The notes under the pieces: generated by a model
Databases searched by the model: none
Seen by the model: only the letters and a program-made list of their open reading frames with translations
What the model was told of the DNA's origin: nothing
Shown here: positions 14,270 through 22,628 of the stretch, piece by piece
How the letters are laid out: each line of letters begins with the position of its first letter
Position numbering within the stretch: position 1 is the stretch's first letter
NCBI RefSeq assembly: GCF_002865985.1
Contig: NZ_LNDD01000005.1
Location: 62,001-126,000 of the forward strand
Direction of reading: 5' to 3'
DNA: 64,000 nt
Source of the DNA: Thermotoga sp. SG1
Lineage (GTDB): Bacteria; Thermotogota; Thermotogae; Thermotogales; Thermotogaceae
Translations under genes and position numbers: made by a program

Positions 14270-14736
14270 TTCCCTTCGCCCTCCTTTTCCCTTTTGAGTT
14301 CCTTCACGATCTCCAGAAATTGATCAACTTCCCGGAAATCACGATAAACGGATGCAAATCTCACATACGCAACCTGGTCGAGTTTTTTCAACTCTTCCAT
14401 GACGAGTTCTCCTATTTTTTTCGTCTCCACTTCGAAGAGGCCTTCTTCCCGAAGTTTCAGACAGATTCTGTTCACCGCTTCCTCTATCTGGTCGTAGGTG
14501 ACAGGTCTTTTCTCACAGGCTTTTATCATACCATTTTTTATCTTGTTCCTATCGAATTTTTCTCTTCTGCCGTCCTTTTTTATGACGAGAACGGGGGCCT
14601 CTTCGTACCTTTCGTACGTGGTGAATCTTCTGCCACATGAGACGCACTCTCTTCTTCTCCTGATGGCGGCACCATCTAGAGTCGGCCTTGAGTCCAAAAC
14701 TCTTGTGTCCATGGAACCACAAAACGGGCACCTCAT
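14266..14736 (-). CDS. nrdR: NrdR, ribonucleotide reductase repressor
   Basis: A 156-residue regulator with an N-terminal zinc ribbon (CPFC at 3-6 and CVSC at about 31-34) and a C-terminal ATP-cone. NrdR binds ATP/dATP and represses ribonucleotide reductase genes at NrdR boxes. No reductase gene lies in this window, so its targets are elsewhere. It overlaps whiA and greA by four bases each, so it is translated within the large operon. Confidence 0.96.
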
Positions 14737-15620
14737 TTTACATCACCGAACCTTTCGGCTATTTTAATGATCCTTTTCAACTTGGAGTACAGTTGAGACT
14801 TTGTAAGGTTCAACCTCTTTCCAAGTTCTCTCAAAGACAATTCCTTGTTCATCAAACGGGCAAGAGCCACTTTTCTCAGATCTTCCGGCAATTTATCCAG
14901 TCCCATCCTCCTCTGTATGAGTTCTATCGCCTTCACCTGTCTTGCCGTGCTTTCGGCGGTTCTGACAGCGTTTGCCTCTATGAAGTTCACCGTTCTGTTC
15001 ACATCGCTTATCACCCTTCGTTCCGTCACTATCCGTTCTATCTCTCTCAGTTTCTCCTGAACACCGATGGCCTCGAGAAATGTCATAATGTCTCTTATAG
15101 ATTTTATATAAAGCTTTCTCGTGTTTGGAAGATCCACTACACCGGAGTTTACGTTAAAAAAGAATTTCAAGGCTTTTTTTGTGAATACAAGAACGTCTTC
15201 TTCGAACAGGTTGATTTCCAGATGATAATGGTGTTTTGGATCCGTCATGGAACCTCCTCCAAGGAAGAGGCCCCTCAGAAATGACACAAAAAGAGCAACA
15301 TCAGAAAAAGGATCGATCTGCATGAAACTTTCCGAATATTCGGTCATGATTTTTATAAATCTCTTCCTTATGTTGTAGGATTTCTCCACGACTATCTCCA
15401 CAACGGGAACGGATATGTACTTCATTAAGTTCAAAAGCCGCCTCGAGGCGGCAAAGGAATGGAGCGAAAAGACGAGTTGCCTTTTTTTGACGTCGAAATC
15501 TCCCCTCGCCTTTATAAAGCCAAGAAGTTCTGATCTGGCCTCATCACGACTTCCAAAAGGTATTTTGACGAGTTCTTCCTTTATCTCTTCTGAAAAAGTG
15601 CGCCTCAGAAGGATCACCAC
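14733..15620 (-). CDS. whiA: WhiA, DNA-binding protein with LAGLIDADG-like domain
   Basis: A 295-residue WhiA homologue: an N-terminal region related to LAGLIDADG homing endonucleases and a C-terminal helix-turn-helix (about 240-290, [20 protein letters not shown]). In Actinobacteria WhiA controls sporulation septation; in Bacillus it affects division and chromosome segregation. The catalytic acidic residues of homing nucleases are not evident, so I treat it as a regulator. The start is GTG 15620, overlapping the end of yvcK by seven bases. It forms the conserved rapZ-yvcK-whiA triad. Confidence 0.95.
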
Positions 15621-16558
15621 CTCGAGATCCTCTCTATAACACCGGCAAGTCTCAGGAAATCATGGCGTACCTTTTTCTTTCCGTCCAGTGGATCTACGAT
15701 CTCTGTCAGGAGGGGTTCTGCGATGACTGTGTTCTGCGTGTTTTCCACATCTATCTCTACAAAATCACTCCCTTCCTTTCTGTACCTTTCGAGAACTTCT
15801 GGAGATGGCCTTTTTGTGTTCACCACCACAAAATCCAACTTCTCTTCGAGATATCTTTCGAGTTCTCTTACGTGATCGGAAACCCTGTAGCCTGTTGTCT
15901 CACCAGGTTGTGTCATGAGGTTGCATATATAAACCTTCCTGGCCTTTGATCTCTTTATCGCTTCTTTCACACCTTTCACCAGTACGTTAGTTATGATGCT
16001 CGTGTAGAGACTTCCTGGTCCGAACACGATCATTTCCGCTTCAAGTATCGCTTCTGTCACTCCAGGTAGAGCTTCTATAGGTCTGTCAAGCCATACTTTC
16101 GCTATCTTTCCGTTCTTTTTGACTATGTTCGTTTCACCTGTTATTTCTTCTCCGTCTTCGAACCTTGCCACAAGTCTTGCGTGATCTTCACTCACGGGAA
16201 GCACTCTTCCTCTTATGGCCAGCACCTTCTCCAGGGTTCTTATGGCCTCAGAGAAGCTTCCTTCAATCTTGGTGAGTGCTGCTATGATGAGGTTTCCAAG
16301 ACTGTGCCCTTTCAAAGATCCTTCCATGAAACGATAATTCATGAGTTTTGCCAGAAGGTCCTCATCTTCAGCGAGTGCAACGATGTTATTTCTGACGTCA
16401 CCTGGTGGAGGTACGTTCAGTTCTTTCCTGAGTTTTCCAGAGCTTCCCCCCTCGTCCGTTACAGAAACGACAGCGGTTATTTCGAAGGATGAAAGGTGTT
16501 TTAAGCCCTTCAGCAGGGTGGAAAGTCCCGTACCTCCCCCTATCGCGACCACCTTCAT
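15614..16558 (-). CDS. yvcK: YvcK/CofD-like protein (gluconeogenesis factor family)
   Basis: A 314-residue protein of the CofD-like fold with the nucleotide-sugar binding opening VVAIGGGTGLSTLL. In Bacillus YvcK binds UDP-sugars and is needed for growth on gluconeogenic carbon and for placing penicillin-binding protein 1. ATG 16558 has AAGG seven bases before it; a GTG six bases further upstream (16564), overlapping the rapZ stop, is the alternative start. Neighbours rapZ and whiA are its usual partners. Confidence 0.93.
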   Translation of the reverse strand: MKVVAIGGGTGLSTLLKGLKHLSSFEITAVVSVTDEGGSSGKLRKELNVPPPGDVRNNIVALAEDEDLLAKLMNYRFMEGSLKGHSLGNLIIAALTKIEGSFSEAIRTLEKVLAIRGRVLPVSEDHARLVARFEDGEEITGETNIVKKNGKIAKVWLDRPIEALPGVTEAILEAEMIVFGPGSLYTSIITNVLVKGVKEAIKRSKARKVYICNLMTQPGETTGYRVSDHVRELERYLEEKLDFVVVNTKRPSPEVLERYRKEGSDFVEIDVENTQNTVIAEPLLTEIVDPLDGKKKVRHDFLRLAGVIERISRW

Positions 16559-16560
16559 CT

Positions 16561-17406
16561 TCACACCTTCTCCAGATCTCTATGTTTCTCAACAACCGAA
16601 AATCCTTCTTTTTTCAACATTTCAGCGATTCTGTGGGCAATGTAGACGGATCTGTGCCGCCCACCGGTACACCCAACACCCACCGTCACGATCCTTCTGC
16701 CAGATCTTTGATATTCTTTCACTGCTATATTTACCGTCTCAAAGATCTTATTTACGAATTCGTCCACAAGGGAGTATTTTTTGAAATACTCCTCTACTTC
16801 CCTGTCAAGGCCTGTCTTTTGGGAAAGCTCTGGCACGTAGTGAGGATTGGGAAGAAATCGCACATCGAATATGAAATCTGCGTCCATTGGTATCCCATGC
16901 TTGAATCCAAAACTCAATATTCTGACGGAGATTCCACCGGATTGGTTCATGAGTGACTGTCCCAGGATTTCCCTCAACTGGTGGGAAGTCATCTTCGTTG
17001 TGTCTATAACAAAGTCGGCTATTTCTTTAATTGGCAGCAGAATCTGTCTCTCTTTTTCAATAGCCTCTTCGAGCCCGACATCGTTTCTCTGAAGAGGGTG
17101 TTTTCTTCGGGTTAGTGCGTATCTTCTCAGAATCTCTTCTTTTGAAGCCTCAAGGAAAACGATCAAAGCGTTTGTTCTTTTCTTTATCTTCTCTATCGCT
17201 TCAACAGGATCACTGAAATGTTCACTCCGTGCGTCCACTGCTATCGCCATCTTTTCAAGATCTGAACTCAAGAAGAGCTTCAGGAGTTCTTCCAATATGA
17301 TTCCCGGCACGTTGTCCACACAGAAATATCCGAGATCTTCAAGAAAACCCATAGCGGTCGTTTTTCCTGCACCGGATAGACCTGTTACCACCACTACTCG
17401 CTTCAA
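16561..17406 (-). CDS. rapZ: RapZ-family nucleotide-binding protein (YvcJ)
   Basis: A 281-residue protein with a Walker A motif GLSGAGKT at 9-16 and the conserved C-terminal GCTGGRHRSVYIA segment. In E. coli RapZ binds small RNAs and steers glucosamine-6-phosphate synthase mRNA; in Bacillus YvcJ binds and hydrolyses GTP. The role here is likely control of cell-wall precursor supply, from context with murB and yvcK. The start is TTG 17406, overlapping the zapA stop by four bases, with only a weak ribosome site, so translation may depend on coupling. Confidence 0.94.
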   Translation of the reverse strand: MKRVVVVTGLSGAGKTTAMGFLEDLGYFCVDNVPGIILEELLKLFLSSDLEKMAIAVDARSEHFSDPVEAIEKIKKRTNALIVFLEASKEEILRRYALTRRKHPLQRNDVGLEEAIEKERQILLPIKEIADFVIDTTKMTSHQLREILGQSLMNQSGGISVRILSFGFKHGIPMDADFIFDVRFLPNPHYVPELSQKTGLDREVEEYFKKYSLVDEFVNKIFETVNIAVKEYQRSGRRIVTVGVGCTGGRHRSVYIAHRIAEMLKKEGFSVVEKHRDLEKV

Positions 17407-19439: not shown

Positions 19440-20471
19440 TTGAAAAACTTACTCGATCTTTCCTACGATGAACTGGTCAGCGAAATCACTGGTCTTGGAC
19501 TTGAGCGCTACAGAGCGGATCAAATTCTGGACTGGGTGTTCGACAAAAAGGTGAATAACTTCGACGAAATGACGAATCTTTCAAAGAAACACCGTGCTCT
19601 GTTGAAAGAGCACTTCACCATTCCTTTTTTGAAGCTCCTGGAAAAGAGGGTTTCCAAGATAGATGGTACCACCAAATTCCTGTGGGAACTCGAGGATGGT
19701 AACACGATAGAGTCCGTGATGATCTTCCATCCAGGCAGAATAACAGCGTGTATCTCCACACAGGTTGGTTGTCCTGTCAGGTGCACGTTCTGTGCCACGG
19801 GAATGAGCGGATTCGTGCGAAATCTCACCACAGGAGAGATCGTTTCACAGATTCTCTCCATGGAGAAAGAAGAGGAAAAGAAGATAGGAAACGTTGTTTA
19901 CATGGGAATGGGAGAGCCGCTGCTCAACTACGAGAACACGATAAAAAGCATAAGAATCCTCAACCACAAAAAGATGGGAAACATAGGAATCAGAAGGATC
20001 ACGATTTCGACTGTGGGGATACCGGATAAGATCATCCAGCTGGCCGACGAAGGACTCGATATAAAACTCGCACTTTCTCTTCACGCTCCCACAAACTTCA
20101 AGAGAGATCAGCTCGTTCCACTGAACAGGAAGTATTCTGTGGAGGAGATTTTGAACGCTATCAAGATGTACCAGATGAAGACGGGAAAGCGAGTGACAAT
20201 AGAGTACGTTTTGATAAGAGGCGTGAATGATGAGATAAGCGATGCAAAAAAACTTGCCGAAATACTCAAAGGACTGAAGGTGTTCGTTAACCTGATCCCT
20301 GTGAACCCGACCGTGGCTGGCCTTTCGAGACCTTCCAGACAGCGCATATTGGCCTTCAAAAAAATATTGCTTGAAAACGGTATAGAAGCAGAAATCAGAC
20401 AGGAGAAAGGTAGTGACATTGAGGCTGCATGCGGCCAGCTGAGGCTGAAGAGAAAAGTCTCATCGCCATGA
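19440..20471 (+). CDS. rlmN: RlmN, 23S rRNA/tRNA adenine-C2 methyltransferase (radical SAM)
   Basis: A 343-residue radical SAM enzyme that methylates C2 of A2503 in 23S rRNA and A37 in some tRNAs. The iron-sulfur motif is CPVRCTFC; the SAM region has GMGEPLLNY; the C-terminal cysteine of GSDIEAACGQL is the methylated catalytic residue. The start is TTG 19440 after GGGAGGTG. The stop overlaps the PASTA gene start (ATGA). Confidence 0.96.
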   Translation: MKNLLDLSYDELVSEITGLGLERYRADQILDWVFDKKVNNFDEMTNLSKKHRALLKEHFTIPFLKLLEKRVSKIDGTTKFLWELEDGNTIESVMIFHPGRITACISTQVGCPVRCTFCATGMSGFVRNLTTGEIVSQILSMEKEEEKKIGNVVYMGMGEPLLNYENTIKSIRILNHKKMGNIGIRRITISTVGIPDKIIQLADEGLDIKLALSLHAPTNFKRDQLVPLNRKYSVEEILNAIKMYQMKTGKRVTIEYVLIRGVNDEISDAKKLAEILKGLKVFVNLIPVNPTVAGLSRPSRQRILAFKKILLENGIEAEIRQEKGSDIEAACGQLRLKRKVSSP

Positions 20472-21082
20472 AAGTTTTCCTTGGAATGTTGACGGGTGTT
20501 GTCGCAGGAGGATTGCTTTTTCTCCTCACGATCGGGTTATACCAAAATCAGTTTGTGATAGTTCCTGATGTTACGGGACTTTCAGGAACGAAAGCCTGCG
20601 AAAAATTGAGGGAATCCGGTCTTTTATGTGATAAAGTATCCACCGAGACAGTGATCGACACGTATCCTCAGAGTGGTTCGAAGGTCAAGAAGGGAAGGAT
20701 CATAAACCTGTATTACGAAAACTCGTTGAAGGATGTTATCCCTCGTTTTGTGGATGTGAAGCTTTCGGTAGCAGAGGAGATCTTGAAAAAACTTGGGTGG
20801 AACTACGAGATCGTTCGATTTCCTTTTGGTGAAGAAAAGGATAGAGTGCTTGCTACCTATCCTGAAGCAGGAAAACTCTACAACGGGAAACTGATTCTTC
20901 TTGTGGACACAGGAGAAAAAGAAGAGTATTTCGTTGTGGAAAATTATGTGGGAAGGAGTCCATCCGACGTAGAAAACGAAGAACACGTAGTTTTCGTTGG
21001 AAACGGTAGCAGGGTGGTATCCCAGTATCCACCGGCTGGATCCATCGCAACGGAAGTCATATTGATCCTCGGGGAGGAGTGA
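20468..21082 (+). CDS. membrane-anchored PASTA-repeat protein without kinase domain
   Basis: A 204-residue protein: one membrane helix at about 4-24, then three PASTA-like repeats outside the cytoplasm at roughly 30-85 (VPDVTGLSGTKACEKL ... YPQSGSKVKKG), 89-147 and 153-202. PASTA repeats bind muropeptides or lipid II in Firmicutes PrkC/PknB kinases and in penicillin-binding proteins. Here there is no kinase domain. ATG 20468 overlaps the rlmN stop as ATGA; an ATG at 20429 is open too but would overlap rlmN by 43 bases and place extra charged residues before the helix. Neighbours rlmN, rsgA and rpe are those of prkC in Firmicutes. Confidence 0.85.
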   Translation: MKVFLGMLTGVVAGGLLFLLTIGLYQNQFVIVPDVTGLSGTKACEKLRESGLLCDKVSTETVIDTYPQSGSKVKKGRIINLYYENSLKDVIPRFVDVKLSVAEEILKKLGWNYEIVRFPFGEEKDRVLATYPEAGKLYNGKLILLVDTGEKEEYFVVENYVGRSPSDVENEEHVVFVGNGSRVVSQYPPAGSIATEVILILGEE

Positions 21083-21084
21083 TC

Positions 21085-21966
21085 TTGAGGAGAAGAGGTA
21101 TTGTGTTGAGCTTTCATTCGAACATGGTCACGGTCGAGGACGAAGAAACTGGGGAGAGGCTTCTCTGTAAATTGAGAGGGAAGTTTCGTTTGCAGAATCT
21201 GAAGATCTACGTCGGAGACAGAGTGGAGTACACACCGGACGGCACAGGGTCCGGTGTGATAGAGAACGTTCTTCACAGGAAGAATCTGCTCGTAAAACCA
21301 CATGTTGCGAACGTTGATCAGGTCATTCTCGTTGTCACCGTGAAAATGCCAGAAACCTCGACCTACATCATCGACAAGTTCTTGGTCCTCACCGAGAAGA
21401 ACGAACTGGAAACCGTTCTTGTCATAAACAAGATGGATATATACGACGAAGAGGATCTCGAAAAAGTAAAGGAGCTGGAACGTATCTATTCAAAACTTTA
21501 CCCGATCGTGAAAACAAGTGCGAAAGCGGGAATGGGCATCGAAGAACTCAAGGAATACCTGAAGGGAAAAATCAGTACCATGGCAGGGTTGTCTGGTGTT
21601 GGAAAGAGCAGTCTTCTCAACGCGATAAATCCCGGCCTGAAACTTCGGGTAAGTGAGGTCTCTCAAAAACTCCAGAGAGGAAGGCATACCACCACCTCCG
21701 CCCAGCTTCTGAGGTTTGATTTTGGAGGCTATGTGGTTGACACTCCGGGCTTTGCAAACCTTGAGATAGGTGACATAGAACCAGAGGAGTTGAAATATTA
21801 CTTCAAAGAATTCAACGGAAAGCAGTGTTTCTTCTCCGACTGTAATCACATAGACGAGCCAGAGTGTGGTGTGAAGGAAGCCGTGGAAAATGGTGAAATC
21901 GCTGAAAGTCGCTACGAAAACTACGTGAAGATGTTTCACGAACTTCTGGGAAGGGGGAAAAGTTGA
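21085..21966 (+). CDS. rsgA: RsgA (YjeQ), small ribosomal subunit maturation GTPase
   Basis: A circularly permuted GTPase of 293 residues: N-terminal OB fold, then the G4 motif NKMD before G1 (GLSGVGKSS) and G3 (DTPGF), and a C-terminal zinc knuckle (CFFSDCNHIDEPECGV). It checks late 30S assembly. Start choice: TTG 21085 is seven bases after GGGGAGG; the upstream GTG 21079 is only one base from that site. It closely resembles, but is not identical to, the T. maritima protein as I remember it. The stop TGA shares a base with the rpe ATG. Confidence 0.95.
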   Translation: MRRRGIVLSFHSNMVTVEDEETGERLLCKLRGKFRLQNLKIYVGDRVEYTPDGTGSGVIENVLHRKNLLVKPHVANVDQVILVVTVKMPETSTYIIDKFLVLTEKNELETVLVINKMDIYDEEDLEKVKELERIYSKLYPIVKTSAKAGMGIEELKEYLKGKISTMAGLSGVGKSSLLNAINPGLKLRVSEVSQKLQRGRHTTTSAQLLRFDFGGYVVDTPGFANLEIGDIEPEELKYYFKEFNGKQCFFSDCNHIDEPECGVKEAVENGEIAESRYENYVKMFHELLGRGKS

Positions 21967-22628
21967 TGGTAAAGATCGCCGCTTCGATCCTTGCGTGTGA
22001 TCTTGCAAGACTCGCCGATGAGGTAAAGAGGGTGGAAGAACACATAGACATGGTTCACTTCGACGTCATGGATGGACACTTCGTTCCGAACATCTCGTTC
22101 GGACTGCCCGTTCTCAAAGCCCTGAGAAAAGAAACCAGCCTTCCAATAAGTGTTCACCTGATGATCACAAATCCAGAGGACTATGTAGACCGCTTTGTGG
22201 AAGAGGGAGCAGACATGGTGGCGGTCCACTACGAGACAACACCACATCTTCACAGGATAGTACACAGGATAAAAGATCTTGGTGCGAAGGCGTTTGTTGC
22301 CATCAACCCCCACACACCGGTTTTTCTCCTGTCTGAGATCATAACGGATGTGGATGGCGTACTCGTGATGAGTGTGAACCCGGGCTTTTCCGGCCAGAGA
22401 TTCATCGCGAGGAGTCTGGAAAAGATAAGGAACCTGAAGAGGATGATAAGGGATCTGGGGCTCGAAACGGAGATCATGGTCGACGGTGGTGTCAACGAAG
22501 AAAACGCTTCAATTCTGGTAAAGAACGGTGCAACGATCCTTGTGATGGGGTACGGTATCTTCAGAAACGAAAACTACGTGGAACTGGTGAAATCCATCAA
22601 GCGGGAAAGAGAGGAATCTGCTGACTGA
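21966..22628 (+). CDS. rpe: ribulose-phosphate 3-epimerase
   Basis: A 220-residue TIM-barrel enzyme interconverting ribulose-5-phosphate and xylulose-5-phosphate in the pentose phosphate pathway. Motifs: SILACD, HFDVMDGHFVPN (metal histidine and catalytic aspartate), VHLM, and VNPGFSGQ and DGGV for phosphate binding. ATG 21966 is eight bases after GGGGG. Its last 32 bases overlap mutS on the other strand. Transketolase at 56597 acts on the same pentose phosphates. Confidence 0.96.
   Translation: MVKIAASILACDLARLADEVKRVEEHIDMVHFDVMDGHFVPNISFGLPVLKALRKETSLPISVHLMITNPEDYVDRFVEEGADMVAVHYETTPHLHRIVHRIKDLGAKAFVAINPHTPVFLLSEIITDVDGVLVMSVNPGFSGQRFIARSLEKIRNLKRMIRDLGLETEIMVDGGVNEENASILVKNGATILVMGYGIFRNENYVELVKSIKREREESAD

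Follow-up and report, generated by a model that had tools for sequence, protein, structure and literature searches.

What is a membrane-anchored row of PASTA repeats doing, without a kinase, in the place where Firmicutes carry prkC? PASTA kinases have been studied as a Gram-positive route for reporting the state of the wall to the cell, and one paper states that the order prpC-prkC-cpgA (rsgA) is conserved in Firmicutes (PMC6449344). The DNA analysed here, termed the window, is the whole stretch of 64,000 nucleotides from Thermotoga sp. SG1. The features of the locus within it are as follows.

19440 to 20471, plus strand: rlmN, the upstream neighbour (Pfam RlmN_N, Radical_SAM)
20468 to 21082, plus strand: gene for the kinase-free PASTA protein, 204 aa (list of open reading frames, sequence, Pfam PASTA)
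20471 to 20545, plus strand: predicted transmembrane helix, residues 2-26 (AlphaFold2 helix; the NCBIfam PASTA-kinase model aligns from position 342 of 563, past its kinase part)
20555 to 20719, plus strand: PASTA repeat 1 (PF03793, 49 bits, E = 1.1e-12 in the genome search)
20735 to 20905, plus strand: PASTA repeat 2 (PF03793, 24 bits in the genome search)
20918 to 21079, plus strand: PASTA repeat 3, C-terminal, limits approximate (third Pfam stretch at E ≤ 1; model strands 174-177, 182-187 and 197-202)
21079 to 21966, plus strand: rsgA, the downstream neighbour (Pfam RsgA_GTPase, 194.1 bits)
21963 to 22628, plus strand: rpe, the end of the conserved cluster (Pfam Ribul_P_3_epim, 244.2 bits)

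The reading frame of the PASTA gene runs from an ATG at 20468 to a stop at 21080-21082. Its start shares four bases (ATGA) with the rlmN stop and its own stop shares four (GTGA) with the start of rsgA. The start methionine is backed by aligned sequences from seven genomes in the genus, where the frames of three relatives begin at the same place. Pfam PF03793 matches the 204-aa protein in three stretches with a total of 86.8 bits (E = 9.4e-25); the curated cut-off of 23.2 bits is passed by the whole protein and by two repeats singly, and no family besides PASTA was matched at E ≤ 1. Repeat 3 gives a weak sequence signal, and the genome-wide PASTA search reports only the first two for this gene. 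The AlphaFold2 model (mean pLDDT 94.1) consists of a helix (residues 2-26) and, behind it, a series of small alpha/beta units, with inter-domain angles that are uncertain because the pTM is 0.53. The predicted topology is a single membrane helix with tandem external PASTA repeats and almost no cytoplasmic part, probably one or two residues ahead of the helix. The preliminary description had given the order as rlmN, a membrane helix plus three PASTA repeats, rsgA and rpe; this is borne out by the Pfam matches, the reading frames and the AlphaFold2 helix, and it fits a locus family fmt-rsmB-rlmN-X-rsgA-rpe in which X is the PASTA gene. About 3 kb upstream, on the opposite strand (14733-17406, minus), lies a cluster that we take, from its sequence, to resemble whiA, yvcK and rapZ. 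YvcK is reported to be a substrate of a PASTA kinase in Listeria (PMC5091766).

The absence of a kinase and a phosphatase from the locus, also part of the preliminary description, held when the search was widened to the genome. There is no PP2C phosphatase gene beside the PASTA gene, as rlmN directly precedes it. In the 99.99%-complete genome no match was found to PF00069 (Pkinase) at E ≤ 1 or to PF13672 (PP2C_2) at E ≤ 0.001, the genome-wide absence being defined by these two models. A 2005 survey lists T. maritima among the genomes without an identified Ser/Thr kinase, yet gives it the table entry '1 (1)' (PMC1262709). Apart from this gene, the genome has PASTA only in a transpeptidase penicillin-binding protein (PBP) on contig C3, where the match is the C-terminal repeat.

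The protein was compared with two classes of PASTA protein, the kinases and the PBPs. Residues 28-203 of the model superpose on PASTA domains 2-4 of M. tuberculosis PknB (5e12_A) with Z = 10.9 and an rmsd of 13.1 over 172 residues, against Z = 7.4-10.3 for structures of PBP1 and PBP2x. A profile built from 20 Thermotogota sequences gave 110.7 bits with the PknB ectodomain and 92.6 with that of PrkC, but at most 31.1 with the PASTA-PBPs, a gap that is partly due to repeat number. NCBIfam scored the window protein at 46.5 bits with PknB_PASTA_kin (NF033483) versus 26.7 with spoVD_pbp; the NF033483 match covers model positions 342-517 of 563, from the membrane segment on, and stays below the 450-bit cut-off. 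The assignment of the window protein to the PrkC/PknB-type ectodomains, here standing alone, is well supported.

The kinase-free form is far more widespread than one odd locus in Thermotogota. At E ≤ 1e-5 the Thermotogota profile has matches in 254 of 390 genomes; 69 belong to the phylum and 185 do not. The best match lies in a frame shorter than 450 aa in 132 of 163 outside genomes (71/83, plus 61/80 in a lower-ranked set), the stop-to-stop frame length being a proxy only and the other 22 of the 185 having no resolved best match. Sixty outside loci were read, drawn from the upper ranking by the kinase-free profile, while for the lower-ranked 80 only frame lengths were taken. Forty-eight of the 60, from 44 families, were kinase-free, meaning that the frame spans 234-425 aa and BLAST matched no kinase in it, with Pfam or NCBIfam applied to three of them; six were pseudokinase fusions, three had a long unassigned N-terminus and three encoded active-looking kinases. 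In one kinase-free protein (L203), about 190 unassigned residues stand ahead of the profile match. A cluster neighbour (fmt, rsmB, rlmN, rsgA, rpe or DUF116) was present near 45 of the 48 kinase-free loci: in 37, rpe or rsgA lies no more than 1,300 bases downstream, in another eight the only such genes are fmt, rsmB, rlmN or DUF116 within 2,600 bases upstream, and the last three have neither. Reading the window gene as an odd relic is too narrow, as short kinase-free forms are common at the locus elsewhere. In the openly licensed literature, no paper among the matches listed dealt with kinase-free PASTA proteins at this locus, judging by titles and the starts of abstracts, and in a 2025 review of bacterial pseudokinases PASTA appears once, in the reference list (PMC12599244).

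One of the three active-looking kinases (L195) lies in the cluster, where rsmB is followed by rlmN-prpC-prkC-rsgA-rpe, so that a single outside genome shows the order which the preliminary description attributed to Firmicutes; the remaining kinases, L197 and L200, lie out of the cluster. The six fusions without the HRD aspartate (L173, L190, L194, L196, L198 and L201) come from six families and each has at least one cluster neighbour, and at a seventh outside locus (L170) a separate pseudokinase gene adjoins a kinase-free PASTA gene. The HRD position reads HGL in L173, HGA in L194, HGH in L198, HGQ in L201 and YRS in the separate gene of L170. Pfam scores the kinase-like domains of L190 and L196 at 13.7 and 16.5 bits, but profile alignment to kinases gave 95.8% and 96.5% (shuffles at most 1.6%), and inspection by eye gives HGF and HNC for the two catalytic loops. 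The DFG aspartate is retained in several of the pseudokinases at the locus; the altered catalytic loops suggest that activity has been lost. The N-terminal parts of L181 and L202 (one family) and of L199, about 150-230 aa long, gave 2.8%, 2.8% and 1.1% in the profile alignment to kinases, near their shuffles, and were left out of the pseudokinase count.

A profile of the C-terminal domain, made from 23 tails of kinase-free, pseudokinase and one long-N-terminus protein, scored 26.5 bits on the tail of L195, a true kinase (best of 20 shuffles, 5.9). Outside the phylum the domain is thus common to kinase-free and pseudokinase proteins and a true kinase, and in many outside homologues the likeness to a PrkC-type ectodomain extends beyond the repeats. 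The domain is absent from the window protein (0.3 bits), and among solved structures its profile found nothing better than E = 0.073, short of the 0.01 threshold.

Because decayed kinases stand at the locus in six families, loss of the kinase is favoured. Our preferred reading, which we hold with about even confidence, is that the window protein is a free-standing PrkC/PknB-type ectodomain retained after its kinase decayed, and that it would bind peptidoglycan or lipid II and organise wall enzymes without phosphorylation. The ancestor would have been a PASTA kinase at fmt-rsmB-rlmN-X-rsgA-rpe; in many lineages its kinase part would have decayed to a pseudokinase and then disappeared, the ectodomain being kept for a kinase-independent job. 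Neither tree decides between loss and later fusion of the kinase: 42 of the 74 inner branches of the PASTA tree are open, and the RPE tree is also too weak. Sixteen of 17 Thermotogota rows of the PASTA tree join one pseudokinase-PASTA protein and one kinase-free protein, both encoded upstream of rsgA (SH-aLRT 87, a modest value), and the f6 sequence (G004) falls elsewhere. For the Thermotogota themselves, whose slots coincide with no Pkinase match, kinase loss is only presumed, the tree being poorly resolved.

The strongest alternative reverses this history and is, in our judgement, possible but distinctly less probable. A free-standing PASTA wall-binding protein would be the ancient resident of the locus, its ectodomain having a phosphorylation-independent job from the start, and PASTA kinases would derive from it by the addition of kinase and phosphatase, PrkC arising by kinase fusion (with prpC) in the Firmicutes line. 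The high proportion of outside best matches in frames below 450 aa and the spread of the 48 short forms over so many families fit such an origin, as does the finding of an active-looking in-cluster kinase with prpC at only one of the 60 inspected loci. On the other hand, the pseudokinases imply an earlier active kinase in their six lineages, and the modestly supported grouping of 16 Thermotogota rows with a pseudokinase-PASTA and a kinase-free protein also counts against this history.

Within the phylum, rsgA was located in 99 of 103 genomes and 100 slots were read, 99 through rsgA and one through the PASTA gene, leaving G003, G056 and G065 uncovered. A kinase-free PASTA gene occupies the slot in 61 of the 100, with both rlmN and rsgA on the stretch in 58 of these, and six further genomes carry it elsewhere, giving 67 in all. 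All but one of the 61 slot copies are open over 161-311 aa, and the remaining one (123 aa) is at a contig end. In 28 genomes (10/10 of family f8, 17/17 of f9 and one of f5) rlmN abuts rsgA without a PASTA gene, -46 to 37 bases separating the two, and the PASTA gene is therefore dispensable in parts of the phylum. Five slots (f4, three f7, one f11) are cut by a contig end or rearranged, rlmN being absent from the stretch. Among named genomes a scan returned four loci, all in Thermotogota. Pkinase matches occur in 27 of the 103 genomes and PP2C_2 matches in ten, and none of their places coincides with those of rsgA (lists compared by eye); the comparison across the phylum for forms that still have the kinase, which the preliminary description had proposed, yielded none in the slot. 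Two f9 kinases that were read are short and sited among other genes. A split PrkC, with a kinase elsewhere complementing the PASTA gene, was considered and rejected: eight of the 27 Pkinase genomes have the PASTA gene and 19 lack it, and the two genes are not mutually exclusive.

Some variation at these loci was seen in passing. The three f3 PASTA proteins read (L051, L052 and L082, from g10 and g11) all end in QGGQF past a variable linker. Three others, L060 and L061 (f11) and L059 (f6), are extended at the C-terminus, and the profile of the C-terminal domain shared outside the phylum matches only G100 (L061) among them, weakly at 8.8 bits. In one f9 genome the rsmB counterpart upstream of rlmN (L078:1787-2788) matches the NusB domain only, with no methyltransferase at E ≤ 1e-5, and 13 of the 17 f9 genomes have an additional rsgA at another place, diverged to about 34-42% identity. 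Two in-frame TAA codons in the rsgA match at G041:C12:367811-368617 suggest that the gene is broken or the assembly faulty there.

The relocated genes raise the further alternative that the protein is an outer sensor, signalling via its membrane helix to a separate cytoplasmic protein such as a histidine kinase or pseudokinase. All six relocated f1 copies (L045, L047, L048, L154, L155 and L156; g2, g3 and g5) precede HisKA-HATPase and HDOD genes, the histidine kinase gene being directly next in three and a cation-efflux gene intervening in three, and at L170 a separate pseudokinase gene adjoins the PASTA gene. The preliminary description's idea of a partner for another protein is a possibility on which these six copies, and two outside loci with the gene ahead of mreB, have a bearing. 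However, the homologous histidine kinase of the window genome lies on a different contig and has no kinase-free PASTA gene adjoining it, and the cytoplasmic part is predicted at one or two residues. We regard a sensor role as unlikely.

Derivation from the PASTA tail of a PBP, with the shared locus a coincidence, is very improbable: a PASTA-PBP is present in the same genome and PASTA repeats are short and alike, but kinase ectodomains score higher, the locus is that of prkC, and the outside homologues have their C-terminal domain in common with a PrkC-type kinase.

The PASTA gene is under purifying selection and is less constrained than its neighbours. Among seven g1 genomes the median omega was 0.118 (11 of 21 pairs unsaturated), compared with 0.045 for rlmN (16/21), 0.033 for rsgA (12/21) and 0.042 for rpe (8/21), a 2.6- to 3.6-fold difference; frames were taken from the first start codon, so that some PASTA rows contain 13 residues overlapping rlmN. 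A dead relic in the process of loss is the least credible reading, for although the gene is absent from f5, f8 and f9 genomes and evolves faster than its neighbours, its omega is about 0.12, nearly all slot copies are open and many families have it. Since the same kinase-free form is found at the same spot in many bacterial families, it is apparently functional and not a degenerate remnant. Of the earlier suggestion of a relic that lost its kinase, the presumed loss gains support from the pseudokinase-PASTA proteins at the same locus in other lineages, while 'dead' finds no support, given the purifying selection, the gene's presence in 67 of 100 genomes and the common short forms elsewhere.

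An association with MreB was kept as a lead only. A strong MreB match (E ≤ 1e-40) is present in 66 of the 67 Thermotogota genomes with the PASTA gene, the exception (G074) being 60% complete. Most of the phylum has MreB, and matches at this threshold are missing from 10/10 f8 (G008-G017) and 5/17 f9 genomes (G018, G023, G027, G033 and G034), f8 also being without the PASTA gene. At two outside loci of one family the order is fmt-PASTA-mreB, with mreC and mreD next in the one examined (named MreB, MreC and MreD by NCBIfam), an arrangement in keeping with the preferred reading. The link is weakened by the 12 of 17 f9 genomes that have MreB without the PASTA gene, by the near-universal occurrence of MreB (344 of 390 sampled genomes) and by G114, which has a 438-aa PASTA frame but no MreB match.

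Returning to retention after kinase decay, the N-terminal anchor would sit in the inner membrane and present the PASTA repeats on its outer side, where they may bind peptidoglycan or lipid II at sites of wall synthesis, and the anchor and PASTA contacts together could position or restrain wall synthases or hydrolases. Work on PASTA kinases offers analogies. The PknB ectodomain is reported to bind mDAP lipid II (PMC6428115), and the extracellular part of StkP to be needed for placement of PBP2x, with StkP directing LytB (PMC12077195). Overexpression of the PknB PASTA domain in mycobacteria is said to alter growth and beta-lactam sensitivity; the growth effect was relieved by magnesium but not by added muropeptides (PMC4632501), a point against the preferred reading. 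If the external half has been retained at this locus, alone or on a dead kinase, a kinase-independent role of PASTA repeats becomes testable in bacteria that lack the kinase. A predicted wall-binding protein would also then be clustered with ribosome-maturation genes (rsmB, rlmN and rsgA) beyond the Firmicutes.

Three known groups of proteins can be set beside the window protein. With the PASTA PBPs (PBP2x, SpoVD and S. aureus PBP1) it shares the PASTA fold outside the membrane, but it has no transpeptidase domain and its sequence scores to them are lower. The pseudokinase-PASTA proteins have the same transmembrane-PASTA ectodomain in the same cluster and have apparently lost catalysis, but they still contain a kinase-like domain, which in L190 and L196 Pfam scarcely detects. 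PrkC, PknB, StkP and Stk1 differ from it in that the window protein has neither a kinase domain nor an adjoining prpC, in a genome without a Pkinase match, whereas they are like it in the membrane helix followed by PASTA repeats, in the slot between rlmN and rsgA-rpe, and in providing its top matches in both sequence and fold.
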